DNA of 40,526 bases, from the NCBI GenBank assembly GCA_018711525.1, contig DVIF01000072.1, forward strand, positions 1 to 40,526, given 5' to 3'. Of this stretch, positions 3,331-39,874 are shown in pieces. The notes under the pieces were generated by a model. It was not told the DNA's origin. It was given only the letters and a program-made list of their open reading frames with translations, and ran no database searches. Position 1 is the first letter of the stretch; the number at the start of each line of letters is the position of its first letter. The stretch is from Candidatus Ornithospirochaeta stercorigallinarum (GTDB lineage Bacteria > Spirochaetota > Spirochaetia > Sphaerochaetales > Sphaerochaetaceae). A program made the translations under genes and the position numbers.

Positions 3331-4653
3331 TTACTTTGAGTTTTCCGTCTTTTCATCTTCCTTTGGAAGGATGAGGTTCATTATGATCGCCACAATAGTT
3401 GCAAGCACTACAGGAGAGGAAGCGAACACCATTGTCACCCATGAAGGGAAGCGTGAAAGAGATTCACTTACAAGGCTTACACCCATTCCAAGTGCAGCAG
3501 AAAGTCCTACTATGGATGTGTTGCGGTAGCTCATAGGCTGCATTGCCACAAGCTTCATACCTGTCATTGCGATTGAGGCGAAGACACTTACCGTAGCACC
3601 GCCGAGCACACACTGGGGAATTGTTGTTAAAAGTGCCGAGAATTTTGGAACAAGCCCTGCGAGAAGCAGCATGAGAGCGGTAAGAGCAAGTACTTTCCTA
3701 TTAACGACCTTTGTTGATGACACTATTCCGACATTCTGGGAATATGTGGCATTCGGCAGTCCTCCAAAGAGTGCAGAGATTGTATTTGACAGCCCGAATC
3801 CTATTATTCCACCCCTCAGCTCATCTCCTTCAGGCTCCCTGTCCATGCCTCCTATGGTGGTTGCCGACATATCCCCTATCGCCTGTACTGCGTTTATCGC
3901 AAAGAGCACGGAGATCGCCAAAATCGAAGAGAACTCGAATTCAATTCCAAAGGGGGCAGGACGTGGAAGAGAGAAGAGTCCCGCATCCCCTACTGCACTT
4001 AGATTGACCATACCGAAGAAAGATGAGACGATATACCCGAAGACTATTCCAAGCAGTATTGATGCAAGCTTCAGCATCCCCTTCCCAAAATGGTTTAAGA
4101 GTGTAACCACAGAGAGTGTGATGATGGAGACAAGCCAGTTCTGCCAGCTTCCGAAATCAGGATTCCCGCTTCCTCCCGCCATATATGTTATGGCTGTAGG
4201 ATAGAGAGAAAGCCCTATCGTGAATACGACAGTCCCTGTTATCAGTGGTGGGAAAAGGCGTTGCAGGCGTTTTGCGAATATTCCTATCACCACTGCAACC
4301 AAGCCCCCTATAAGCTGAGCACCGAAGATATGCGCGATTGAAAAGGATGTGGTGATGCTCTGCATGGTAGCTAGATAAGCAAAACTTACTCCCATTATCA
4401 AGGGAAGTCTTGCTCCACAGATGCTCTTTATGCCGAAGAGCTGCAGGAGAGTTGAGATGGCGGCACACACAAGAGATGATTGTATCAACAGTATTCTTGA
4501 TGAGCTATCAAGCCCTGCGACAGTGGAGATTATGATCGCGGGGGTGACACAGCCGACAATCATGGCGACAAGATGCTGCAGCGCCATAGGAAATGAATAT
4601 CTTAAAGATGGAAGCTTCCCATCCATCTCGAACAGCAGTTTTCTATTACTCAT
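3331..4653 (-). CDS. Xanthine/uracil permease (NCS2 family)
   Basis: ALQHLVAMIVGCVTPAIIIS start, multiple TM segments, QNVGIV.STKVVNRKV and QPMSYRNTSIVG motifs; likely start MSNRKLLFEM at 4653 rather than 4695. Confidence 0.9.
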   Translation of the reverse strand: MSNRKLLFEMDGKLPSLRYSFPMALQHLVAMIVGCVTPAIIISTVAGLDSSSRILLIQSSLVCAAISTLLQLFGIKSICGARLPLIMGVSFAYLATMQSITTSFSIAHIFGAQLIGGLVAVVIGIFAKRLQRLFPPLITGTVVFTIGLSLYPTAITYMAGGSGNPDFGSWQNWLVSIITLSVVTLLNHFGKGMLKLASILLGIVFGYIVSSFFGMVNLSAVGDAGLFSLPRPAPFGIEFEFSSILAISVLFAINAVQAIGDMSATTIGGMDREPEGDELRGGIIGFGLSNTISALFGGLPNATYSQNVGIVSSTKVVNRKVLALTALMLLLAGLVPKFSALLTTIPQCVLGGATVSVFASIAMTGMKLVAMQPMSYRNTSIVGLSAALGMGVSLVSESLSRFPSWVTMVFASSPVVLATIVAIIMNLILPKEDEKTENSK

Positions 4654-4734
4654 AGAGGAGAGTATATCATGATTAGTCCAAAAGCTGTGAAACATTAACT
4701 TGCCCTCTCAATAATTCAGAGGTAAACTATTTCC

Positions 4735-5340
4735 ATGATTGAAAAAAGAGCATATGAAAAGGCTGTATTCGATATAATCGAAGCAGACTCTGAAGACTTT
4801 CTGAAAGGCGCATACAAGGATGAAGCCAAAGAGAGGATCCTCAAAATCATCGAGATAGAGGCTCCGATCACAGAAGCTCTTCTTTCAAAAAGGCTAATAA
4901 ACAGCTTCTCCATCAAACGTCTCGGCTCGAGCCTTTCCGAATACTTTGACAGCCTCATGAAAGAACTTGATGAGGAAGGGAAGCTCACGAGCACTCTCAC
5001 CGCAGGAGAGAAGGTCTATTACAATGGAAGTGCTGTGACCTTCTTCCGCCCCACCCCTGACAATCCTGAAGAGATCAGATACTCCTATCAGATTCCAGTA
5101 GAGGAGGCACTCAATGCCATCATCTATATATTCGAGACGAGAGGAAGGAAATTCCTGAAGAAAGACCTTCTCTCAGAGTTCTCAAAAGAACTGGAATACC
5201 AGAGGAAAGGAAGCCAGGTGGTATCATTGTTCAACAAGGCGTTCGAGGAGGGGAAAAAGAAAGGCATCATAATGAAGAACAGCAGTGGGAAGTTTTTTGT
5301 TTCCTCCGATAAAAATACAGAAATACAGGAAACAGAGTGA
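4735..5340 (+). CDS. Stand-alone DUF3320-like protein
   Basis: RILKIIEIEAPITEALLSKRLINSFSIKRLGSSLSEYF resembles the DUF3320 domain normally found at the C-terminus of large DUF4011-type helicases. Confidence 0.5.
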   Translation: MIEKRAYEKAVFDIIEADSEDFLKGAYKDEAKERILKIIEIEAPITEALLSKRLINSFSIKRLGSSLSEYFDSLMKELDEEGKLTSTLTAGEKVYYNGSAVTFFRPTPDNPEEIRYSYQIPVEEALNAIIYIFETRGRKFLKKDLLSEFSKELEYQRKGSQVVSLFNKAFEEGKKKGIIMKNSSGKFFVSSDKNTEIQETE

Positions 5341-5453
5341 TAAAATTTACATTTCACGCATTTTATTCCCCTGGAAAATATCATTTCCATCTTTTTCTTT
5401 ACAAATGACCTTCATCAGCTATACTTAGATTGAAACAGAAAAAGGAGAAAAAT

Positions 5454-6917
5454 ATGCTGATCAACCTTGATGTAAAACCTGAAATCAGAAAAAAGAACAT
5501 CGCAAGATGCAAGGAAAAGGGAATCAAGCTTCCGACCTTCAAGGAGATGATTGATCCAAAGCTCATCAAAAAGGATGTACTGGATAAACTGAAGGTCACA
5601 GGACTATGGGATGTAGATCCTGTAAACCTCTATAGAATCAACTGGCACAACGAGAGAAAAGAGAAAGGAGGTCTCTTCTCTGGTGTAAACTATATTGAGA
5701 TTCCACATGAGATAACAGGAGTAAAGGCACGTGTCTTCGCCCTTGCCGGAAAGTTCTTCCCTTGTGGAGTCCACAAGGTAGGTGCTACATATTCCTGCCT
5801 CGCACCCGCACTTGTCACAGGAAACTTCGATGCCGTAGAGCAGCAGGCCGTATGGCCCAGCACAGGCAACTACTGCCGTGGTGGTGCATACAACTCGGCA
5901 CTCCTTGGATGCAAGAGCATCGCAATCCTTCCTGAGGATATGAGCCAGGAGAGGTTCAACTGGCTCAAGACCGTCGCAGGAGAGATCATCGCAACCCCTG
6001 GATGCGAATCAAACGTAAAGGAAATCTTCGATAAATGCCACGAGCTCAATGCTGAACGCGGCAACCATATCGTCATATTCAACCAGTTCGAACAGTTCGA
6101 GAACTACCTCTGGCATTATGAGGTGACGGGAGCTGCGATTCTTGAAGTGCTCAAGGATCTTGGAATAGCTGCAGATTCCGTAAAGGGTTATGTGTCGAGC
6201 ACAGGAAGTGGTGGAACTCTTGCAGCAGGAGACCATCTGAAAGAGGTATTCCCACATATCAAGATCGGAGCAGGAGAGGCTCTGCAGTGCCCTACCCTCC
6301 TTAGAAACGGATTCGGAGCCCACAGGATCGAGGGAATCGGAGACAAGCACGTCCCATGGATCCACAACGTAAGGAATACGGACATGGTCCTCTCGATTGA
6401 CGATCAGGACTGCATGGACACCTACCGTCTCTTCAACGAGAAGGAAGGACTTGAGTATCTGAAGAAACAGGGACTGAGCGACAAGCAGCTTGAAGACCTC
6501 TCGCTCTTCGGAATCTCAGGCATAGGCAACCTCCTTGGTGCGATTAAGATGGCGAAGTACTACGAGATGGATGAGGATGATGTTGTATTCACAATCCTTA
6601 CAGACAGCTCTGTCATGTATACTTCCCGTCTTAAAGAACTCACAGAGCAGCAGGGAGCCTTCAGCGAGATGGAAGCTGCGAAAGTCCACGCATCGGCACT
6701 CATGCATCAGGGAATCGACAATGCCCTCGAGCTCGGATACTACGACAGGCTCAGGATCCATAACCTCAAGTACTACACATGGGTCGAGCAGCAGGGCAAG
6801 ACCTATGAGGAGCTCAACAGGCAGTGGTACGACAAGAACTACTGGAAGGATATTCCAAAGCTTACAAGTAAGATCGATGAGCTTATCGAATCCTTCAATG
6901 CAGAGATAGATAAATAA
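5454..6917 (+). CDS. PLP-dependent enzyme, fold type II (PLP-dependent protein beta-subunit-like)
   Basis: FFPCGVHKVGATYSCLAPALVTG (candidate Schiff-base Lys), WPSTGNYCRGGAYNSALLGCKSIAILPEDMS phosphate/substrate-binding region, SSTGSGGTLAAGD Gly loop; ATG at 5454 preceded by AAAGGAG. Confidence 0.8.
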   Translation: MLINLDVKPEIRKKNIARCKEKGIKLPTFKEMIDPKLIKKDVLDKLKVTGLWDVDPVNLYRINWHNERKEKGGLFSGVNYIEIPHEITGVKARVFALAGKFFPCGVHKVGATYSCLAPALVTGNFDAVEQQAVWPSTGNYCRGGAYNSALLGCKSIAILPEDMSQERFNWLKTVAGEIIATPGCESNVKEIFDKCHELNAERGNHIVIFNQFEQFENYLWHYEVTGAAILEVLKDLGIAADSVKGYVSSTGSGGTLAAGDHLKEVFPHIKIGAGEALQCPTLLRNGFGAHRIEGIGDKHVPWIHNVRNTDMVLSIDDQDCMDTYRLFNEKEGLEYLKKQGLSDKQLEDLSLFGISGIGNLLGAIKMAKYYEMDEDDVVFTILTDSSVMYTSRLKELTEQQGAFSEMEAAKVHASALMHQGIDNALELGYYDRLRIHNLKYYTWVEQQGKTYEELNRQWYDKNYWKDIPKLTSKIDELIESFNAEIDK

Positions 6918-6921
6918 GATC

Positions 6922-6941
6922 TGATGCCGGGGCTTCCCGGC
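6922..6941 (+). other. Intercistronic hairpin between the two PLP enzyme genes
   Basis: ATGCCGGG-GCTT-CCCGGCAT, perfect stem without a T-tract. Confidence 0.5.
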
Positions 6942-6963
6942 ATTCTTAAAAAAGGAAGAAATT

Positions 6964-8184
6964 ATGAGATTCAGATATGTCTGCTCGGACTGCGGTAGGG
7001 TATACAAGACCGATGATATCATGTACCTCTGTCCCGAGTGCAGCAAAGATAATGACGGCAAGACATTCTCAAAAGGGAACCTTATCGTGGAACTGACTGA
7101 TGAGGTGCTGAAGAAAGCAGGGAAGAAGGAGCATGTGAGAGCGGAGGATTTCTACCCGTATGAGGTCAAACACTCAAAAGAGTTCCCAATAGGCATAACA
7201 CCTCTTGTCGAAGCTAAAAGGCTCAACAGCAGAAGCGGCCTGAAGAACACGCTGTACAAACTCGACAGCCAGCTCATATCAGGCTCGTTCAAAGACAGGG
7301 CGAGCTACCTTGTTGCAGAACAGGCGCTCTGCCACAACGAGAAGAAGATAGCCCTCGCCTCAACAGGAAACGCAGGAGCGGCAATGAGTGCAGTCGGGGC
7401 CGCCCTTGGGCTGGACATCATACTATTCGTCCCTGAGAATGCTCCTATAAACAAGCTGATGCAATCGGTGCTCTATGGGGCGCATGTGGTTCCTGTGAAA
7501 GGAAGCTATGACGATGCTTTCAACCTCTCGATCGAGTACACAAAGAGATTTGGAGGAATCAACCGCAATACTGCATACAACCCGATGACGATTGAGGGGA
7601 AGAAGAGCATCTCGATTGAACTCTTTGAGCAGATGGGAAGGAAAGCCCCCGATGCAATATATGTGCCCGTTGGAGACGGATGCATAATTGCAGGAGTTGC
7701 AAAAGGCTTTATGGACCTAAAAAAAGCAGGACTCATAGATACCCTACCCCATATCATATGTGCACAGAGCGATAAGTCGGATGCGATTACAAAGGCATTT
7801 GAAAGCGGAGAGTATCTTCCTGTGAAAGCAACGACAAGAGCCGACAGCATATCCGTATCCCTTCCTGCAAATGGAAGGATGGCTGTACGCTACATAAAGG
7901 AAAGCGACGGCTGGTGCGTAAGAGTAAGCGACGAAGAGATAATAGATGCCGAGCTAGAGCTGGCAAAAGAGGCTGGAATACTTTCAGAGCCTGCCGCAGC
8001 ATGTGCGTATGCAGCATATAAGAAGGATGCGGAGAACATAAAGAAAAAACTTGGAGAGGATGCATCCGTCGTGGTTCTGCTTACAGGCACAGGCTTTAAG
8101 GATATGGCTGTCTTTGATGGAAAAGTAAAACTTCCCAAAGCAATAGATGCAACAGTTGAAGAAGTAGGGAAACTGGATTTCTGA
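6964..8184 (+). CDS. Threonine-synthase-like PLP enzyme with N-terminal zinc ribbon
   Basis: N-terminal CSDC...CPEC zinc ribbon; LISGSFKDRASYLVAEQAL (PLP Lys), ASTGNAGAAMSAVGAALGL, PVGDGCIIAG. Confidence 0.82.
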   Translation: MRFRYVCSDCGRVYKTDDIMYLCPECSKDNDGKTFSKGNLIVELTDEVLKKAGKKEHVRAEDFYPYEVKHSKEFPIGITPLVEAKRLNSRSGLKNTLYKLDSQLISGSFKDRASYLVAEQALCHNEKKIALASTGNAGAAMSAVGAALGLDIILFVPENAPINKLMQSVLYGAHVVPVKGSYDDAFNLSIEYTKRFGGINRNTAYNPMTIEGKKSISIELFEQMGRKAPDAIYVPVGDGCIIAGVAKGFMDLKKAGLIDTLPHIICAQSDKSDAITKAFESGEYLPVKATTRADSISVSLPANGRMAVRYIKESDGWCVRVSDEEIIDAELELAKEAGILSEPAAACAYAAYKKDAENIKKKLGEDASVVVLLTGTGFKDMAVFDGKVKLPKAIDATVEEVGKLDF

Positions 8185-8192
8185 ATCTGGTG

Positions 8193-8229
8193 ACAGGAGA
8201 TGCTTTACCCATGGCATCTCCTGTATCTT
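8193..8229 (+). terminator. Likely intrinsic terminator after the PLP pair
   Basis: 11-bp perfect stem ACAGGAGATGC / GCATCTCCTGT followed by ATCTTTT. Confidence 0.6.
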
Positions 8230-8406
8230 TTCAAAAACATTACATTGTTCTCTCTATTTTCAGAATATAGGTGGAACTTGTCTGGAAAACAGAGTCTTCT
8301 CACTTATGAATCCGAAGTAATTGATTTTCTAGCAACAATTAACTAGTGAAAAAGTAGCGTTTTCGTCTTTTCAAAACTTGTATAATTCAGTATTTTCTTT
8401 ACTGAT

Positions 8407-11313
8407 ATGTTGAAAATAGGAATTGATGTCGGCTCAACTACGATGAAAGTTGTCGCCATTGACGAGAATCTACAACCGATATACAGCGCCTATGAGCGCC
8501 ATTATTCAGAAATATTCAAGAGAGCGGCGAAGATGCTCTCAGATGCGTTAAATAAACTTGGAGACAAGGAAGTGGAGGTCTCCCTCTCAGGCTCCGCAGG
8601 TATGGGCCTGAGCGAGAAATCCGGAATACCTTTCGTACAGGAAGTGTATGCTACCCGTGTAGCAGTGAACAACTACATTCCGAATACCGATGCTGTCATT
8701 GAGCTTGGAGGAGAGGATGCTAAAATCCTCTTCTTGAAGAACGGACTGGAAGTAAGGATGAACGGATCCTGTGCTGGTGGAACCGGTGCATTCATCGACC
8801 AGATGGCAACACTGCTGGGAATCTCGATGAATGACATCGACCGTCTTGCAGATAAATCAACAGAGATATACACAATCGCATCACGATGCGGAGTATTTGC
8901 AAAATCGGACATCCAGCCTTTGATAAACCAGGGTGCACGCACGGAGGATATCGCGGCCTCCATCCTTGTAGCGGTCGTCAACCAGACGATTGCCGGGCTT
9001 GCCCAGGGAAGGAAGATCGAGGGCAATGTCGTATATCTCGGAGGACCGCTGACATTCATCAAGAATCTGAGAAAGCATTTTGATGAGGCTCTCAATACGA
9101 CGGGCATATGCCCTGAGAACTCTCTTTATTACGTCGCTCTAGGAACTGCACTCTCACCCGGAGGTAGGAAGACCACGCTCTCAGCCCTTATAGATGAGAT
9201 AGGCTCCCTCAAAGGTAGCGGCAACTATACAAAGCTTCCTGCCCTCTTCAAGGACAGGGCTGAGTATGAAAAGTTCATCTTAAGACACAGAAAGGCGACA
9301 GTGGAATCCACGAATCCCCTGACCTACCATGGAGAGGCCTATCTTGGAATAGATGCGGGAAGTACAACGATAAAGTGTGCGCTTATAGACATAAACGAGA
9401 AGATGCTTCTCTCCCGGTATTCCCCGAACAACGGAAACCCTGTCCAGGCGATTGCAAGCTTTCTCAATTCCGTCTATGACGAATACCCTGACATCATAAT
9501 CAGGGCAAGTGCCTCCACCGGATACGGAGAAGAGCTCTTGAAGACCGCATTCAACCTGGACTACGGCCTTGTAGAGACACAGGCGCACTTCCTTGGAGCA
9601 AAGCATTTCAAAAGTGATGTCGATTTCATCATAGATATCGGAGGACAGGATATAAAGTGCTTCAAGATCCGTGATGGAGCGATCGATGACATCTTCCTGA
9701 ATGAGGCATGCTCATCTGGATGCGGCTCATTCCTGCAGACATTCGCAAACGCACTTGGAAAATCGAGTCAGGAGTTCGCAGAGCTTGCAATAGATTCCAA
9801 GGCTCCTGTAGACCTTGGATCAAGATGCACCGTTTTCATGAACAGTTCTGTCAAACAGGCCCAGAAAGACGGGGCAAGCATAGAGGACATCTCTGCAGGA
9901 CTTGCTATAAGCGTAGTCAAGAATGCCCTTTACAAGGTCATCAGGGCTCAAAGCAAGGATGCCCTGGGAAAGAACATCGTAGTACAGGGTGGGACATTCT
10001 TAAACGATGCAGTGCTCAGGGCTTTTGAAATGGAACTTGAGAGAGAGGTCATAAGGCCTGAGATTGCAGGACTGATGGGAGCCTTCGGTGCCGCTTTGTA
10101 TGCAAAGAGGATGAAGGAGAGGGAAAAAACTCCATCTTCCATCATCTCTAAAGAAGAACTGAGGGAGCTGAATCCGAAACTCAGAAGCGTAAGATGCAAC
10201 GGTTGCAACAACCACTGTCTTCTAACAATCAATGATTTCGGCCTTTCCCGCCGTCTTATAAGCGGTAACAAATGTGAAAAACCGATTACAGGTGTGAAGA
10301 AAGCTGAAAGCGATGAATTCAATCTGTACATGTATAAGCAGGAGATTCTCAAGGGCTATATGGACAGAAGGCCGGAGAACAAAAGAGGCCGTATAGGACT
10401 GCCTCTTGCCCTTGGAATGTATGAGCTCCTGCCATTCTACCAGACACTCTTTGAGAACCTGGGATATGAGACTGTCGTATCCCCGTTCTCAGACAGGGAG
10501 CTCTACATCTCAGGACAGGCCTCCATACCATCGGATACCGTGTGCTTCCCTGCGAAACTCATGCATGGGGCGATAGAATACCTGAAAAAGCAGAAAGTGG
10601 ATATGATATTCATCCCTGCATCCTCATACAACGTTGATGAGGAGAAGGGAACGAATCATTTCAACTGCCCTGTCGTCGCCTATTACGGAGAGGTGATCAG
10701 AGCAAATCAGGACCTTGGAGGCATTCCCCTATACCTAGTATACCTCTCACTGGAGAGTCCCAAGTTCTTTACAAAGAGGATTGCCGAGACTTTCTCCTTA
10801 AAGAAGAAGGAAGTCATGAAAGCAACAGAAAAGGCTTTCGAAGCACTCAATGACTATCATAAGAAGGTGCTGAGGAAGGGAGAGGAGATAGTAGCGAAAG
10901 CCGAGGAGGAGAAAAGGCATATCATCGTACTCTCAGGCAGGCCATATCATGTGGACCCTGAGATCAACCACGGCATAGACCGCCTCCTTGTCTCCTTAGG
11001 AGCTGCTGTGATAACAGAAGACAGCATAAGCTATAAGGAAGAGAAGAAGAGCGTAGGCGTACTCAATCAATGGACATACCATGCAAGACTATACGATGCG
11101 GCACACTATATAGGGGACAGGAAGAACATGGATCTTGTCCAGCTCGTATCGTTCGGATGCGGACTGGATGCCGTCACAACCGATGAAGTAAGAGATATCC
11201 TAAGGGAAGAAGATAAGATATACACACAGATAAAGATTGATGAGATTACAAATCTCGGAGCTGTGAAGATCAGGCTCAGAAGCCTCTTTGCTGCAATGGA
11301 GATGAAAGAATAA
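8407..11313 (+). CDS. Acyl-CoA dehydratase activase with tandem BadF/BadG/BcrA/BcrD ASKHA ATPase domains plus DUF2229
   Basis: Two ATPase domains (IGIDVGSTTMKVV...NGSCAGGTGAFIDQM and LGIDAGSTTIKCA...EACSSGCGSFLQTFA), followed by a DUF2229-like region (RSVRCNGCNNHC..., PADTVCFPAKLMHG-like segment). Confidence 0.9.
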   Translation: MLKIGIDVGSTTMKVVAIDENLQPIYSAYERHYSEIFKRAAKMLSDALNKLGDKEVEVSLSGSAGMGLSEKSGIPFVQEVYATRVAVNNYIPNTDAVIELGGEDAKILFLKNGLEVRMNGSCAGGTGAFIDQMATLLGISMNDIDRLADKSTEIYTIASRCGVFAKSDIQPLINQGARTEDIAASILVAVVNQTIAGLAQGRKIEGNVVYLGGPLTFIKNLRKHFDEALNTTGICPENSLYYVALGTALSPGGRKTTLSALIDEIGSLKGSGNYTKLPALFKDRAEYEKFILRHRKATVESTNPLTYHGEAYLGIDAGSTTIKCALIDINEKMLLSRYSPNNGNPVQAIASFLNSVYDEYPDIIIRASASTGYGEELLKTAFNLDYGLVETQAHFLGAKHFKSDVDFIIDIGGQDIKCFKIRDGAIDDIFLNEACSSGCGSFLQTFANALGKSSQEFAELAIDSKAPVDLGSRCTVFMNSSVKQAQKDGASIEDISAGLAISVVKNALYKVIRAQSKDALGKNIVVQGGTFLNDAVLRAFEMELEREVIRPEIAGLMGAFGAALYAKRMKEREKTPSSIISKEELRELNPKLRSVRCNGCNNHCLLTINDFGLSRRLISGNKCEKPITGVKKAESDEFNLYMYKQEILKGYMDRRPENKRGRIGLPLALGMYELLPFYQTLFENLGYETVVSPFSDRELYISGQASIPSDTVCFPAKLMHGAIEYLKKQKVDMIFIPASSYNVDEEKGTNHFNCPVVAYYGEVIRANQDLGGIPLYLVYLSLESPKFFTKRIAETFSLKKKEVMKATEKAFEALNDYHKKVLRKGEEIVAKAEEEKRHIIVLSGRPYHVDPEINHGIDRLLVSLGAAVITEDSISYKEEKKSVGVLNQWTYHARLYDAAHYIGDRKNMDLVQLVSFGCGLDAVTTDEVRDILREEDKIYTQIKIDEITNLGAVKIRLRSLFAAMEMKE

Positions 11314-32839: not shown

Positions 32840-33628
32840 TCATATGAGAATAGTACTAATAGTATGGATATTATCACTTTTATATCGCCATGTGCTATCT
32901 TTTTTGCATAACCCGAAATACGTACTTCCGCTCCCGGAGAGTGAGAAATATGAATAATTACTGCTAATGCTTTGAATTACAGAAGAGCGAGGAGTCACAA
33001 GCTCAAAATCATTTGGAAATCTTTCATTTGTCAGTTCGGCAAGTGTATCAGGTAATGAAACATAACTTCTGTCAAAAGTATCCAATTTTGCATAAGCTTC
33101 TGACGTCTCCACGAAGAAGGAAGGCAGGAACAGGTCTACATCGCCTGTTAATAGACCACATGGGGAAATGAGTTCTCCACGCCCCTGCACCCTTGCCGCA
33201 CTCAGCCCGCTTATGAAGAACGGAAGGTCCGAGCCCACGGAGAGTGCGACATCAGCAAGTCCTTTTTCATCCAGAGGATGGGAGAAATACTCATTGAGGT
33301 ATTTAAGTATCGCCGCTCCGTTGCTGCTTCCCCCACCGAGTCCCGCCTTTGACGGAATCCTCTTCTTTATTCTCACATCCAGGCTGAAAACCAGTCCCGT
33401 AGCCTTTGAGAATGCAATTGCCGCCTTCTCCATTATATCAAGACCCCTGTCGAGATACCCGGCATTTCCTTCTATGGCGACAGAAAGACATCTGCTCTCA
33501 GTGGCCGAAGGATATATCTCATCATATAAGTCGATGAGATGGAAATATGAATCTATGTCATGAAAGCCGTCCTTCCGCTTTTCCAAGACCTTGAGACCTA
33601 TGTTGATCTTCGCATATGATTTTATCAT
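32840..33628 (-). CDS. ispE: 4-diphosphocytidyl-2-C-methyl-D-erythritol kinase
   Basis: SYAKINIGLKVLEKRKDGFHDIDSYF, PSKAGLGGGSSNGAAILKYLN, GSDLPFFISG; likely start MIKSYAK at 33628. Confidence 0.92.
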   Translation of the reverse strand: MIKSYAKINIGLKVLEKRKDGFHDIDSYFHLIDLYDEIYPSATESRCLSVAIEGNAGYLDRGLDIMEKAAIAFSKATGLVFSLDVRIKKRIPSKAGLGGGSSNGAAILKYLNEYFSHPLDEKGLADVALSVGSDLPFFISGLSAARVQGRGELISPCGLLTGDVDLFLPSFFVETSEAYAKLDTFDRSYVSLPDTLAELTNERFPNDFELVTPRSSVIQSISSNYSYFSLSGSGSTYFGLCKKDSTWRYKSDNIHTISTILI

Positions 33629-33698: not shown

Positions 33699-34451
33699 AT
33701 GAAAGGAATAATCATAGATAAGGACGGAACACTTTTCAATTATGCATATGTGTGGGGAGGCGTCGTCTCAAAAGCAATCAGAGGAGGATTTTCCGAACTC
33801 GGATTGAAAGGAGACAAGCTGAACAGGATAACCATGCGTTTTGAAGAGCTTTTCGGAATAGACGAGAGAGGGGGCAGCTATAAGAACGGCATCCTCTTCC
33901 GTCCTGACCTCGCTGTGATAACGATAGCGAAGATGGTCCTCGCCTCCCTGGGCGCAGGGCTCAATCCTTTCAAAGTGAAGAACAAGGTCTTCGATAAGAT
34001 CGAGAAGATGGGCTCCTTGATAGAACAGGAGATCGATGCGAAGGAATTTCCCGGGATAAAGGAGCTTTTCAAGAAACTCAAGGACAACGGCTATGTCATC
34101 GGCATAGTCACAAACGACTGCGTGGCGACTACCAGGCTCTTTCTAAAGAAGATGGGTGCGGAGGAATACGTCGACTTCATCAGAGGTGAGGACTCGGGGA
34201 CCAGGAAGAAACCCAATCCAGAGGCATTCAGGCAATTCATCAGTGAGTTCTCATTGAAGCCTGAGGATGTTGCAATCGTAGGGGACTCGAAGGCCGACAT
34301 GAAGTTCGCCTCAAACAGCAATGCGGGCTATAGTATAGCCGTACTCACAGGATCTGGAGACAGAAAGCTCCTTGAAAGGATGGCGGACAAGGTCTACCCC
34401 ACCATCCTGGATATCGCTAAGGATTCAGTCCTCTTCGAAAAGAACACTTGA
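33699..34451 (+). CDS. HAD-superfamily hydrolase (phosphoglycolate phosphatase-like)
   Basis: GIIIDKDGTLFNYAY, GIVTNDCVATTRLFLKKMG, RKKPNPEAFRQF, AIVGDSKADMKFA; alternative in-frame starts at 33690 and 33693. Confidence 0.88.
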   Translation: MKGIIIDKDGTLFNYAYVWGGVVSKAIRGGFSELGLKGDKLNRITMRFEELFGIDERGGSYKNGILFRPDLAVITIAKMVLASLGAGLNPFKVKNKVFDKIEKMGSLIEQEIDAKEFPGIKELFKKLKDNGYVIGIVTNDCVATTRLFLKKMGAEEYVDFIRGEDSGTRKKPNPEAFRQFISEFSLKPEDVAIVGDSKADMKFASNSNAGYSIAVLTGSGDRKLLERMADKVYPTILDIAKDSVLFEKNT

Positions 34452-35333
34452 AAGATAACGCTCTGCAGTGTCTGGAAGAATTGCCAGGACGGTCTTTTCC
34501 TTATTCTCCGCGGCTATCTCCAGAGCGGCCTTCATCGCAGCACCACTGCTGATTCCCGCAAAAATCCCACTTCTTCTCATCATCTTTCTACTCATCATGA
34601 CAGCATCGTCCCCCTTTACCGTCATGAATCTGTCGATGACATCGAAATCGAGTACGGATGGAATGAAGTTAGCCCCTATACCCTGGATCTTATGACTTCC
34701 TGACTTCCCCTTCGTGACAAGGGGACTCTCTTCGGGCTCGACGGCTACGATCTCAACACCCTGCCTCTTTTCCTTCAGATATCTTCCGACTCCAGAGACT
34801 GTGCCGCCGGTGCCGAATGCGGAAACAAAACAGTCTATCTCAGGAAGGTCCCTGAGGATCTCGGGGCCTGTGGTCTCGTAGTGAGCCAGTCTGTTGTCCA
34901 TATTGTTGAACTGGTCAGGTATATAGGCGTTGCCGACCTCTTTTTTAATCTCTTCGGCTTTCCTCACCGATCCTGCGATGCCTAGGGATGCAGGTGTGAG
35001 CACGAGCTTTGCACCAAGGGCCTTGATTATCGCCCTGCGCTCAAGGCTCATGCTTTCAGGCATGACAATCAGGCATTCATACCCCATGGCAGACGCGATT
35101 GCACTCAGGGCGATTCCCGTATTCCCGCTTGTAGGTTCGATTATAAGGGTATCCCTGTCGATCTCCTTCCTCTCCTCGGCTTTCTTTAGCATATAGTAGG
35201 CGACTCTGTCCTTTGCAGAGGAAAAAGGATTGAAATACTCAAGCTTCGCATACAGCTTGATATCCTCGCCGAATCCGTGGACCCTCACAATCGGTGTATT
35301 TCCAATTAAATCTGTTATTTTTTCAGCAATCAT
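34425..35333 (-). CDS. cysK: Cysteine synthase A
   Basis: MIAEKITDLIGNTPIVRV, NPFSSAKDRVAYYML, IIEPTSGNTGIALSAIASAMGY, AFGTGGTVSGVGRYLKE. Confidence 0.92.
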   Translation of the reverse strand: MIAEKITDLIGNTPIVRVHGFGEDIKLYAKLEYFNPFSSAKDRVAYYMLKKAEERKEIDRDTLIIEPTSGNTGIALSAIASAMGYECLIVMPESMSLERRAIIKALGAKLVLTPASLGIAGSVRKAEEIKKEVGNAYIPDQFNNMDNRLAHYETTGPEILRDLPEIDCFVSAFGTGGTVSGVGRYLKEKRQGVEIVAVEPEESPLVTKGKSGSHKIQGIGANFIPSVLDFDVIDRFMTVKGDDAVMMSRKMMRRSGIFAGISSGAAMKAALEIAAENKEKTVLAILPDTAERYLSSVLFEED

Positions 35334-35460: not shown

Positions 35461-37179
35461 ATGAAATACGCATGGGATGAAATAGACGAATTCAGAGGTA
35501 GTTTAGTAGGCGGAGAGTGGCCGACGGTTCCGGAACTCTTTTTGATGAGTGAGTATAGATACAGCAACAATGTTGCATTCAGTGTATTCGAGCCGGATAA
35601 GAAGACGATTACATATAAAGAGGCAAAAGAATACATCTTCAATATCGCTTCATATCTCAGGGACAAGGGAATAAAGAAAGGCGACAAGGTCGCTCTCAAT
35701 GGTAAGAACAGCCCTGAATGGGCGCTCTCTTATTTTGGAATCCTCACAGCAGGTGCTGTTGTGGTACCAATCGACAATCAGATGAAGCCTGAGAGATTCA
35801 TGAGACTCAGTGAATATGCGGATGCGAAATTCGTCATCGCAGATCTAGATGTCCTTGAGAAAATCAAGAGCAGGGCGAACGATTGGTATGACGGACTGCT
35901 TGGACTAGGCATGCTCAAAGGCAACAGCAGCGACTATGTCAAAGTGAAAGAGATGAGGAGTGACAACCCTCTTACAGAGAGAGTACTCGTATCCGATGAT
36001 GATATAGCGGCAATCCTCTTTACAAGTGGAACGACGGGAAATGAGAAAGGGGCGATGCTCACACACCGCAATATCGTGAGCAATGTCTATCAGGCAGCGA
36101 ACGGAATGGGAGTTGATGAGCACGATGTACTCTATGCACTCCTTCCTCTCCACCACTCATATTGCTGTACTGCGGTTCTTCTTGAGACGATCCGCCATGG
36201 CTCCGAATGTCTCTTCGGACATGGCATAATCGTATCCAGGATGATAAACGACCTCAAGATGGGCAAGGTAACCGTATTCATGGGTATCCCTCTCCTGTAC
36301 AACAAGGTCATTGCAGGCATCTTTGCAAAAGTGAAGGAAAAGGGCGCCCTCACATACGCCCTGATCAAAGCTCTGATGGCATTCAATGGATTCTGCAAGA
36401 AATGCTTCGGAAAAGCACCTCTGAGAGGCTTCTTCAACAAGAAGATCCTTTCCCAGGTCGGACTTGACCACTCGAAACTGCTCATCTGCGGTGCAGGACC
36501 TCTCAGTCCGAAGGTGTTCAAGCAGTATCAGCAGCTCGGGCTCAACTTCCTCCAGGGCTATGGGCTTACAGAGACAAGTCCTATCGTAACCCTCAACCCT
36601 CCAGAGCACTTCAAGGTAGACTCGATCGGAAGAGTTCTTCCATTCATCGACCTCCGCATTGCAGATACGGACAGTGAAGGAGTCGGAGAGATCCAGCTCA
36701 AAGGTCCGAACGTATGCAAGGGCTATTATAAGGATGAGGAGAATACAAAGGCGCTCTTTACAGATGATGGCTATCTGAGGACAGGGGACCTTGGATACAA
36801 GGACAGTGAGAACTACGTGTACCTCAAGGGAAGGAAGAAGAACATCATCGTTACAGAAGGTGGAAAGAACGTCTTCCCTGAAGAGATTGAAGACATGTTC
36901 CAGCTCTATGGCCAGGTCGAGCAGATCCTGATCAGAGGTTTCCAGCAGAAGAAGGATGTGCCTTGTGAGTGCATCGAGGCCGTGATCTATCCTAGCAAGG
37001 ACTACTACAAGGACAAGGGCATGAGCACAGAAGAGATCAAGAAGGATATCGAAAAAGTGATCAGCGAGGTCAACAAGGAGCTTGCAGGTTATAAGAAAAT
37101 CGAAAAACTCACGGTTCTGGACCAGCCTATGGAAGAGACGACCACAAGGAAGATCAAAAGAGGTACGGTACAGGCATAA
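35461..37179 (+). CDS. AMP-forming acyl-CoA synthetase (long-chain fatty acid-CoA ligase-like)
   Basis: ILFTSGTTGNEKGAMLTHRNIVSNVYQ, LQGYGLTETSPIVTLNPP, YLRTGDLGYKD, KGRKKNIIVTEGGKNVFPEEIE; likely ATG 35461. Confidence 0.92.
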   Translation: MKYAWDEIDEFRGSLVGGEWPTVPELFLMSEYRYSNNVAFSVFEPDKKTITYKEAKEYIFNIASYLRDKGIKKGDKVALNGKNSPEWALSYFGILTAGAVVVPIDNQMKPERFMRLSEYADAKFVIADLDVLEKIKSRANDWYDGLLGLGMLKGNSSDYVKVKEMRSDNPLTERVLVSDDDIAAILFTSGTTGNEKGAMLTHRNIVSNVYQAANGMGVDEHDVLYALLPLHHSYCCTAVLLETIRHGSECLFGHGIIVSRMINDLKMGKVTVFMGIPLLYNKVIAGIFAKVKEKGALTYALIKALMAFNGFCKKCFGKAPLRGFFNKKILSQVGLDHSKLLICGAGPLSPKVFKQYQQLGLNFLQGYGLTETSPIVTLNPPEHFKVDSIGRVLPFIDLRIADTDSEGVGEIQLKGPNVCKGYYKDEENTKALFTDDGYLRTGDLGYKDSENYVYLKGRKKNIIVTEGGKNVFPEEIEDMFQLYGQVEQILIRGFQQKKDVPCECIEAVIYPSKDYYKDKGMSTEEIKKDIEKVISEVNKELAGYKKIEKLTVLDQPMEETTTRKIKRGTVQA

Positions 37180-37184
37180 GCATA

Positions 37185-37208
37185 AAGGGGCAGCTTGCCC
37201 CTTTTTTA
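37185..37208 (+). terminator. Intrinsic terminator separating the acyl-CoA synthetase from mtaD
   Basis: AAGGGGCA-GCT-TGCCCCTT followed by TTTT. Confidence 0.85.
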
Positions 37209-37237: not shown

Positions 37238-38515
37238 ATGAATACTTTGATTAAGAACGCATTGGTAATCCCCATGAAAAACGACGGGGAGTTCTTCTAT
37301 GGAGACATACTCATAAAGAACGGTAAAATCGCAGAGGTAGGAGAAAAGATAGATTTCCCCGCAGATGAGACCATAGATGCGGAAGGGGCAATCGCGCTTC
37401 CTGCATTCATAAACGCGCACACGCATCTAGCAATGATCCTCATGCGCAACTACAAGGATGACAAGGAGAACCTGCAGGAGTGGCTTTCTGAAATCTTCCC
37501 TATCGAGGACAAGCTTGAAGCGGATGACATATTCAAGGCCTCAAGGGCAGGGGTTGCCGAGCTCATCAAAGGTGGTTGTACGACTTTCGCAGACATGTAT
37601 TTCTCCGCAGAAGAGACAGAAAAGGCAGTCATGGAGGCGGGAATCAACGCATCACTCGGTCTGACGATATTCGGAGACGGAGAGGAGACGGAGAGAAGAT
37701 ATCTTGAAAGACTGCCGAAGATGAAGAAAAACGCCGAATCCTATGGCAGGATCACATTCACCATCGCCCCTCACGCGATCTACACGACAGAAAAAGACAG
37801 CTATAAGAAGTCAAAGGAATATGCAGAGAAGGAGGGATTCGTAGTCCATACACATCTTTCAGAGACGAAAAAGGAAGTGGACGACTCTCTGGCGGAAAAC
37901 GGAAAAAGCCCCCTTACCTACCTTAAGGAAATCGGTGCGCTGAGCAGGAACAATATGATTCTTGCCCACGGGGTTCATCTGACCGATGAAGAGCTGGAAG
38001 TGGTGAAGGAATACGGGCTGAGTGTAATAAACAACCCATCAAGCAACATGAAGCTTACATCCGGGGCGCTGAATGTCGAAAAACTGATTGAGATGGGAAT
38101 AAATGTCGCACTTGGAACAGACGGGGCCAGCAGCAACAACAACCTCAACATGCTTGAAGAGATGCATGTTGCAGCACTCTCTGCATCCCTGAGAGGAGGA
38201 AAGCCCATAAAAGCCTACGACATTCTTAAAATGGCAACCATCAATGGAGCAAAGGCCCTCTCACTCGAGAGCAGGCTCGGCACCATTGAAAGCGGAAAGG
38301 ATGCCGATATAATCCTCATAAGCACAAAAGGCCTTAACATGAACCCTCTGAACAATCCGTTCTCTGCAATAGTATATTCAGCTTCCAGCGAGGACATAAC
38401 CACAGTCTTCTCAAACGGTGTGAAAGTATTGGATGACAGAAAGATCACCTATGCCGATGAGAGTGAAATAATAAAAGATGTGAACGCTGCATGGAGCGCT
38501 GTCACCAGGAGGTAG
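37238..38515 (+). CDS. mtaD: 5-methylthioadenosine/S-adenosylhomocysteine deaminase-like amidohydrolase
   Basis: ALPAFINAHTHLAMILMRNYKDDKENLQEWL, CTTFADMYF, VVHTHLSETKKEV, ILAHGVHLTDEE, NNPSSNMKLTSG, ALGTDGASSNNNLNMLEEM. Confidence 0.87.
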   Translation: MNTLIKNALVIPMKNDGEFFYGDILIKNGKIAEVGEKIDFPADETIDAEGAIALPAFINAHTHLAMILMRNYKDDKENLQEWLSEIFPIEDKLEADDIFKASRAGVAELIKGGCTTFADMYFSAEETEKAVMEAGINASLGLTIFGDGEETERRYLERLPKMKKNAESYGRITFTIAPHAIYTTEKDSYKKSKEYAEKEGFVVHTHLSETKKEVDDSLAENGKSPLTYLKEIGALSRNNMILAHGVHLTDEELEVVKEYGLSVINNPSSNMKLTSGALNVEKLIEMGINVALGTDGASSNNNLNMLEEMHVAALSASLRGGKPIKAYDILKMATINGAKALSLESRLGTIESGKDADIILISTKGLNMNPLNNPFSAIVYSASSEDITTVFSNGVKVLDDRKITYADESEIIKDVNAAWSAVTRR

Positions 38516-38519
38516 AGAG

Positions 38520-38840
38520 ATGTTTTTCGTAGACAAAGATATAAGCACGGACATCATCGATGAGAGGACAAAGCGCAAGGTCCTTGCCCATGATGATGAG
38601 ATGATGGCATGCCATCTCTATTTCAAGACCGGATCCATAGGAAGAAAGCACTCACACTCAAACACCCAGATATGCTACATAATCAAAGGCAGGTTCGAGT
38701 TCGATCTCGAAGGAGACACCAGAGTCCTGACATCAGGCGACAGTGTATACATCCCATCGGACGCAGAACATGGCCTCGTATGTCTTGAAGAGGGGGAAGT
38801 ACTTGATGTCTTTACCCCGGAAAGGAAGGATTTCCTATGA
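38520..38840 (+). CDS. Small single-domain cupin (KdgF-like)
   Basis: HDDEMMACHLYFKTGSIGRKHSHSNTQICYIIKGRFEFDLEGDTRVLTSGDSVYIPSDAEHGLVCLEEGEVLDVFTPERKDFL; cupin metal-site His/Gln/His pattern. Confidence 0.87.
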   Translation: MFFVDKDISTDIIDERTKRKVLAHDDEMMACHLYFKTGSIGRKHSHSNTQICYIIKGRFEFDLEGDTRVLTSGDSVYIPSDAEHGLVCLEEGEVLDVFTPERKDFL

Positions 38841-39874
38841 TGAAGGAATCATTTGAGACGATCAGGATGGAAGGAGATGATCTTATTCTCCTAGACCAGA
38901 GGAGACTTCCATCCTCCATGGAATATATCAGGGCAAAGACAGTGGACGACGTATATCGGGCAATCAAGGACATGGCTGTCAGAGGAGCACCGTTGATCGG
39001 AAGCACTGCAGGATATGGGGTGTATTTCGCAGCAAAAGAAAGCCGAAGCAAAGAAGAATTCCTGAAAAAGTGTACATTCCTCGCATCTGCAAGACCTACG
39101 GCAGTGAACCTCATGTGGGCTGTAGACAGGATGAAAAGGACGGCATTCGAATACGATTTCTCGCTCGAAAAGCTTTTAAAGGAAGCAGATAGGATAAAAG
39201 AGGAGGACATTGAAACCAACCATGCACTGAGCATCTACGGCTCTTCACTGCTGGAAAAAGGATCCACGGTCCTGACGCACTGCAATGCAGGAGCACTTGC
39301 AACTTCAGGATGGGGAACGGCACTTGGAGTTATCAAGCAGGCCTTCCTGGACGGCAGGATCAAGCATGTCTATGCCGATGAGACAAGGCCGAGGCTGCAG
39401 GGAGCACGGCTTACTGCATTCGAGCTCGTAGACTTCAAAATCCCTTCAACCCTTATCCCTGACAGCGTGGCTGCAACACTTATAAGGGACAAGAGAATCG
39501 ATGCGATAATAGTGGGAGCGGACAGGATTGCCCTCAACGGGGATACAGCAAACAAAATCGGAACGTTCTCTCTTTCTGTTGTTGCAAAGGCATATGGCGT
39601 TCCAATGTATATTGCAGCTCCAATCAGCACCATAGATTTCAACACTAGAAGCGGTAAAGACATCCCCATAGAGGAAAGAGATAAGAGTGAGGTAATCGAC
39701 CCGCTGGATAACGGGATGCTCATAGCACCGGAGGGGATGGATGTCTATAACCCATCATTTGATGTGACTCCGCATGAGAATATTACAGCGATCATAACAG
39801 AAAAAGGAATCATAGAAGAACCTTTTGAAGAGAATATCAGGAAACTGAAAGAATGCTGCTGCAGTCACACCTGA
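38837..39874 (+). CDS. mtnA: S-methyl-5-thioribose-1-phosphate isomerase
   Basis: MAVRGAPLIGSTAGYGVY, YADETRPRLQGARLTAFEL, IVGADRIALNGDTANKIGTFSL. Confidence 0.95.
   Translation: MMKESFETIRMEGDDLILLDQRRLPSSMEYIRAKTVDDVYRAIKDMAVRGAPLIGSTAGYGVYFAAKESRSKEEFLKKCTFLASARPTAVNLMWAVDRMKRTAFEYDFSLEKLLKEADRIKEEDIETNHALSIYGSSLLEKGSTVLTHCNAGALATSGWGTALGVIKQAFLDGRIKHVYADETRPRLQGARLTAFELVDFKIPSTLIPDSVAATLIRDKRIDAIIVGADRIALNGDTANKIGTFSLSVVAKAYGVPMYIAAPISTIDFNTRSGKDIPIEERDKSEVIDPLDNGMLIAPEGMDVYNPSFDVTPHENITAIITEKGIIEEPFEENIRKLKECCCSHT

Follow-up and report, generated by a model that had tools for sequence, protein, structure and literature searches.

The locus analysed here raises the question of what a small cupin gene is doing between two genes of methylthioadenosine (MTA) salvage, and whether its product takes part in that pathway or only travels with it. 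The window, a stretch of 40,526 nt from Candidatus Ornithospirochaeta stercorigallinarum, is contig 60 of a 1.93-Mb genome that is 83% complete, and our statements about this genome rest on family searches and on individually fetched stretches of it. The first-pass annotation had described an mtaD-cupin-mtnA trio behind a terminator, with a 4-nt gap and an ATGA overlap, which was correct in every detail checked, and had placed ispE in the same window, where an IspE-type gene was indeed found. The features are as follows.

About 32840-33619, minus strand: IspE-type gene (TIGR00154, 128.9 bits, below the cut-off of 138.7)
34425-35330, minus strand: cysteine synthase gene cysK, a conserved neighbour of the ligase gene (TIGR01139, 384 bits; cut-off 351)
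35464-37179, plus strand: acyl-CoA ligase (AMP-binding) gene, which keeps its place ahead of mtaD throughout the genus (family match and neighbourhood comparison)
37184-37204, plus strand: intrinsic terminator of the acyl-CoA ligase gene that precedes it (stem of 9 pairs with a 3-nt loop and a T tail)
37238-38515, plus strand: mtaD, for an MTA/SAH (5'-deoxyadenosine) deaminase-type amidohydrolase of 425 aa (PF01979, E=2e-72; 4f0r, E=1.6e-78)
38507-38512, plus strand: Shine-Dalgarno-like AGGAGG for the cupin gene, within the last mtaD codons (sequence reading)
38520-38840, plus strand: gene for a KdgF-like cupin of 106 aa, with intact H44, H46, Q50 and H84 (metal) and D96, F98 and R102 (catalytic)
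38837-39874, plus strand: mtnA, for a methylthioribose-1-phosphate isomerase of 345 aa (TIGR00512, 426.9 bits; 1t9k, E=8e-101)

As read from the sequence, mtaD starts with ATG at 37238 and ends with a TAG at 38515, 4 nt separate this stop codon from the cupin ATG at 38520, and the cupin TGA (38838-38840) overlaps the mtnA ATG (38837-38839). The order acyl-CoA ligase-mtaD-cupin is shared by some 30 members of the genus, with mtnA immediately 3' of the cupin gene in 16 of them, and a gene order that recurs to this extent is not a matter of chance. Named relatives of this locus belong to uncultured gut Spirochaetaceae/Spirochaetales, among them Candidatus Ornithospirochaeta and Candidatus Aphodenecus. 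What the data show directly is the order of the genes, the families to which they belong, which residues are conserved and in what pattern across genomes, and that each gene is present.

The flanking genes agree with the proposed tightly coupled MTA-salvage operon, whose order recurs in the genus. MtnA passes the curated TIGR00512 model (cut-off 279), can be aligned over its length to MtnA proteins of known structure, 1t9k being the best, and conserves the motifs THCNAGALAT and GADRIALNGD; by sequence, it is a canonical MtnA. MtaD is of the deaminase type, its best solved relative being the MTA/SAH deaminase 4f0r, and among the NCBIfam equivalog models it reached none of the cut-offs, so that SAH or 5'-deoxyadenosine are still possible substrates. 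In one relative (G055), the main cluster has lost mtnA and a second, divergent mtaD-mtnA pair is present (L161, positions 3581-5874), which suggests a horizontal replacement.

The annotation had also noted that the cupin resembles KdgF, and this was borne out by the closest solved structures, the active-site residues and the position in a tree. By sequence, the top solved relative was BeKdgF (7zyb, E=2e-23), ahead of 2pfw and the KdgFs of Yersinia and Halomonas. A profile of the cupin family, run against cupins of known structure, gave 1.8e-31 to 3e-24 (88-112 bits) for the KdgF structures and at most 53 bits for any other cupin, the next ones falling short of the KdgFs by some 35 bits or more. 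BeKdgF holds its metal through H50, H52, E56 and H90 and relies on D102, F104 and R108 for catalysis (PMC11381880). All seven positions have their counterparts in the window cupin, the third metal ligand of a KdgF being either Gln or Glu, and the cupin matches KdgF over its full length as a single cupin domain. It thus resembles YeKdgF, HaKdgF and BeKdgF (5fpx/5fpz, 5fq0 and 7zyb) in its single domain of about 106-134 aa, its metal ligands, its D/F/R catalytic residues and its full-length best match. Unlike these proteins, which belong to uronate clusters, it is encoded between mtaD and mtnA, outside any uronate or pectin cluster (the usual KdgF setting, although not a strictly defining one), and some cluster cupins of the genus have lost the active site. 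A literature search found no paper connecting KdgF with MTA genes.

When 62 KdgF-like proteins were placed in a tree, the 30 cupins of the clusters grouped as a single clade (93/82), sister (99/96) to stand-alone KdgF genes of Ca. Aphodenecus-type genomes; G013, the only genome of that type examined for this, has mtaD and mtnA adjacent with no cupin between them. More distant homologues adjoin uronate-type genes, labelled by eye as heparinase-like proteins and KduD-like reductases. The window genome itself has three GH88/105 (PF07470) matches, and GH28 polygalacturonase-type and GH105-type genes stand side by side on contig 87, so a KdgF has work to do there. It also carries a second intact KdgF on contig 84, adjoining an aldose epimerase gene. 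In several species this second gene (L153, positions 1786-2956; also L167 and L169) follows the aldose 1-epimerase family gene, with a MetN/MetI-like ABC transporter downstream of it.

We consider it probable that the cupin is a KdgF carried as a passenger in the MTA operon, with no action on MTA sugars, and that MTA is handled by a deaminase-entry DHAP shunt. The cupin would speed the ring opening of the 4,5-unsaturated uronate freed from pectin by GH28/GH105-type enzymes. In an ancestor of the genus (Candidatus Ornithospirochaeta-type), genome rearrangement may have brought its gene between mtaD and mtnA, with which it would since have been co-transcribed without acting on MTA sugars. MtaD would deaminate MTA to give methylthioinosine, an MTIP/MTAP-family phosphorylase encoded elsewhere in the genome would yield MTR-1-P, MtnA would form MTRu-1-P, and a class II aldolase would split the latter into DHAP and methylthioacetaldehyde. 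The substrates, the order of the steps and the passenger effect of the cupin's placement are what we infer from the gene data.

An MTA-to-C3 route, one of the two outlets proposed by the annotation, gained plausibility from genes found outside the window. Neither an MTI phosphorylase nor a RuBisCO-like protein had been visible locally; a search of the 83% complete genome turned up a phosphorylase-like gene on contig 44 and no PF00016 match, that is, no RuBisCO-like protein. The phosphorylase is best matched by MTIP (148 bits, cut-off 223) and MTAP (143 bits, cut-off 275), below both cut-offs. Its gene (L154, positions 4626-6317, minus strand) adjoins that of a divergent second MtnA-like protein of the IF-2B family, 32% identical to the MtnA of the window. 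On contig 81 (L206, positions 6863-10021), a class II aldolase gene is followed by a split transketolase pair and a DUF6062 gene in one operon. The aldolase, a candidate for the MTRu-1-P step, is 54-56% identical to aldolases adjoining mtnA in two relatives, with the orders mtnA-pfkB-aldolase-DUF6062 (G038) and mtnA-aldolase-split transketolase-DUF6062 (G051; L172, positions 4561-7707), the aldolase directly following mtnA in the latter. Other relatives have mtnK-mtnA, with an MTR kinase scoring 407 bits (cut-off 275). The aldolase and split transketolase operon possibly reflects a transketolase step in MTA or 5-deoxyribose salvage.

The logic of the DHAP shunt is already known (PMC10986504), as is deaminase entry through MTA deaminase and MTI phosphorylase in Pseudomonas (PMC6302742). 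The window genome shares MtnA and a candidate class II aldolase with the former (Pfs/MtnK or MtnP, MtnA, Ald2), and an MtaD-type deaminase and an MTIP/MTAP-like phosphorylase with the Pseudomonas aeruginosa route. Relatives match the DHAP shunt with mtnA-pfkB-aldolase or mtnK-mtnA, whereas the window genome has its genes dispersed on contigs 44, 60 and 81, the candidate aldolase sits with a split transketolase and the phosphorylase falls under the curated MTIP cut-off. Judged from these genes, MTA handling is most likely a deaminase-entry, DHAP-type shunt from MTA to C3, a route of known type.

The distribution of the cupin bears on which pathway it belongs to. Clusters of the genus comprised 16 with mtaD-cupin-mtnA, 14 with mtaD-cupin without mtnA and eight with mtaD-mtnA without the cupin; most of the 14 genomes lacking mtnA in the cluster carry a different mtnA elsewhere. 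The annotation had thought it worth checking whether the trio is conserved as neighbours, and such conservation is confined to a portion of a single genus. The 14 clusters without mtnA and the eight pairs without a cupin mean that the cupin is not tied to mtnA, and they rule out an obligatory coupling to MtnA. The seven KdgF residues were complete in 22 and broken in eight of the 30 cluster cupins, and the full site was kept in 13 of the 14 without a neighbouring mtnA. Another KdgF was present, or strong GH88/105 matches were lacking, in 13 of the 16 genomes that have a broken cluster cupin or none, as compared with 6 of the 22 with an intact one (Fisher p=0.0025), and in 7 of 8 as compared with 6 of 22 when only broken cupins were counted (p=0.009); both comparisons are post hoc, with categories drawn up after the data had been seen, and the genomes are related to each other. 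Phylogenetically independent pairs of intact and degenerate copies gave 2.9 for and 0.2 against, which, at about four pairs, is underpowered and not significant. Two genomes are exceptions to the pattern, G070 (82% complete), where the cupin is degenerate in spite of a GH88 match and a second KdgF was not seen, and G035 (83% complete), where it is intact and GH88 was not seen. On this post hoc evidence, cupins have lost the site chiefly in genomes in which a KdgF would be redundant or unnecessary, and the active site tracks pectin use rather than MTA genes.

These observations speak against the cupin-catalysed step downstream of MtnA that the annotation had proposed, as do the full KdgF site and the stand-alone KdgF sisters. 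One form of that proposal, in which the cupin aids the tautomerisation of an MTA sugar (the MTR-1-P anomer, or the keto and enol forms of MTRu-1-P) immediately ahead of or behind the MtnA reaction, draws on the translational coupling to mtnA in 16 genomes and on the ring-to-open-chain chemistry of KdgF (PMC11381880). MTRu-1-P, however, is acyclic; as it has no free 5-OH, no furanose is possible, and by this reasoning a ring-opening enzyme has nothing to open after MtnA. With the full site kept where mtnA is gone and many mtaD-mtnA pairs lacking a cupin, we regard this role as very unlikely. A cupin of KdgF origin that now serves the MTA cluster in part of the genus, by binding sugar phosphates, by regulation or as a partner of MtaD, is an unlikely explanation with more in its favour, since it would account for the retention of the gene between mtaD and mtnA even where the KdgF chemistry is gone. 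Seven genomes (G029, G063, G041, G062, G067, G054 and G069) still have, between the two genes, an in-frame but degenerate copy that lacks metal residues, catalytic residues or both, and the cupin gene has been a neighbour of mtaD since early in the history of the genus. The cupins of G029 and G063 (L155, positions 3781-4083, and L156, positions 3647-3949), which are small genomes with hardly any GH88/105 signal, have lost one metal His and all three catalytic residues, and their dN/dS of 0.066 (0.115 for MtaD and 0.132 for MtnA) indicates that the degenerate copy is under purifying selection, which, with GH88/105 nearly absent, hints at a role other than that of KdgF. The second intact KdgF on contig 84 could likewise free the cluster copy for another task, an argument against the passenger reading. 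On the other side, the degenerate lineages are long branches in the tree of 62 proteins, i.e. they change fast; between G041 and G062 the cupin has a dN of 0.31 and the adjacent genes one of 0.08-0.11, a three- to fourfold difference in rate, the selection ratio of this pair being uninformative because synonymous sites are saturated. Moreover, eight genomes keep mtaD-mtnA without any cupin, and the KdgF site is complete in most copies, that of the window included. In some lineages the cupin may have a second role; that some pectin-poor gut spirochaetes keep a site-less KdgF under selection for a new MTA-linked job, binding MTA sugars or regulating MtaD or MtnA, seems doubtful.

The other outlet proposed by the annotation was isoprenoid synthesis. 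The MTA-isoprenoid shunt of R. rubrum and Rhodopseudomonas palustris consists of MtnP, MtnA, a RuBisCO-like protein (DeepYkr-type isomerase) and a cupin methylsulfurylase. As a variant of it, the cupin would convert MTXu-5-P to DXP and methanethiol and so feed the MEP pathway, and the likeness lies in MtnA and a cupin encoded with an MTA-processing enzyme in a genome with MEP genes. MtnA is present and coupled, and DXP does need another source here, because DXR is found without a canonical DXS. The best PF13292 match in the window genome was 30 bits, and canonical DXS (PF13292, E<=1e-20) was found in 0 of 139 Sphaerochaetales-type genomes, the whole order in the genome collection, while the same search was positive in 10 of 14 control genomes; a loose search gave transketolase-like matches only, up to 58 bits. 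DXR was found in 134 of the 139 genomes, including all 75 of good quality (301 bits in the window genome, cut-off 316), in the order frr-uppS-cdsA-dxr-rseP, as labelled by eye, in all loci examined. The shunt differs in proceeding by direct MTA phosphorolysis where the window cluster has a deaminase, in its RuBisCO-like protein, which the search of the window genome did not find, and in its cupin, since that of the window groups with KdgF, far closer to it than to other cupins of known structure. The methylsulfurylase reading of the cupin was rejected on the missing RuBisCO-like protein and the KdgF site. Several genomes without a detected MtnA are DXR-positive (G004, G006, G017, G023, G024 and G025, among others); they share the DXS gap yet keep DXR, so MTA is not a general source of DXP, and MtnA with the cupin was rejected in that capacity. 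A cupin-dependent MTA-isoprenoid route therefore appears exceedingly improbable.

A published survey listed 181 species lacking only Dxs, of which 172 were unexplained, and its main text makes no mention of spirochaetes (PMC10663253); a literature search found no paper on DXS in Sphaerochaeta. In three species examined, a stand-alone fused PDH-E1 alpha/beta gene (product of about 655 aa) immediately precedes pheS-pheT, and the neighbourhood has no genes for E2/E3.

L204, 4271-6235 (contig 23 of the window genome): PDH-E1 alpha/beta fusion
L211, 3892-5898: PDH-E1 alpha/beta fusion
L212, 3869-5812: PDH-E1 alpha/beta fusion

This fusion and the split transketolase may be candidates for the missing DXS activity.

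Taken together, the locus is an operon of known enzymes, and the cupin is most likely a KdgF rather than a new MTA enzyme. Tight operon coupling, here a 4-nt gap and an ATGA overlap, need not imply a shared pathway, and a passenger can be told from a partner by asking whether the active site follows pectin use or the MTA genes. MTA salvage in these gut spirochaetes is narrowed to a deaminase-entry, DHAP-type route. The presence of DXR without a canonical DXS across the whole order is a more valuable lead than the cupin; MTA is disfavoured as a general DXP source there, and the order includes cultured members that can be used to hunt for the DXS replacement.
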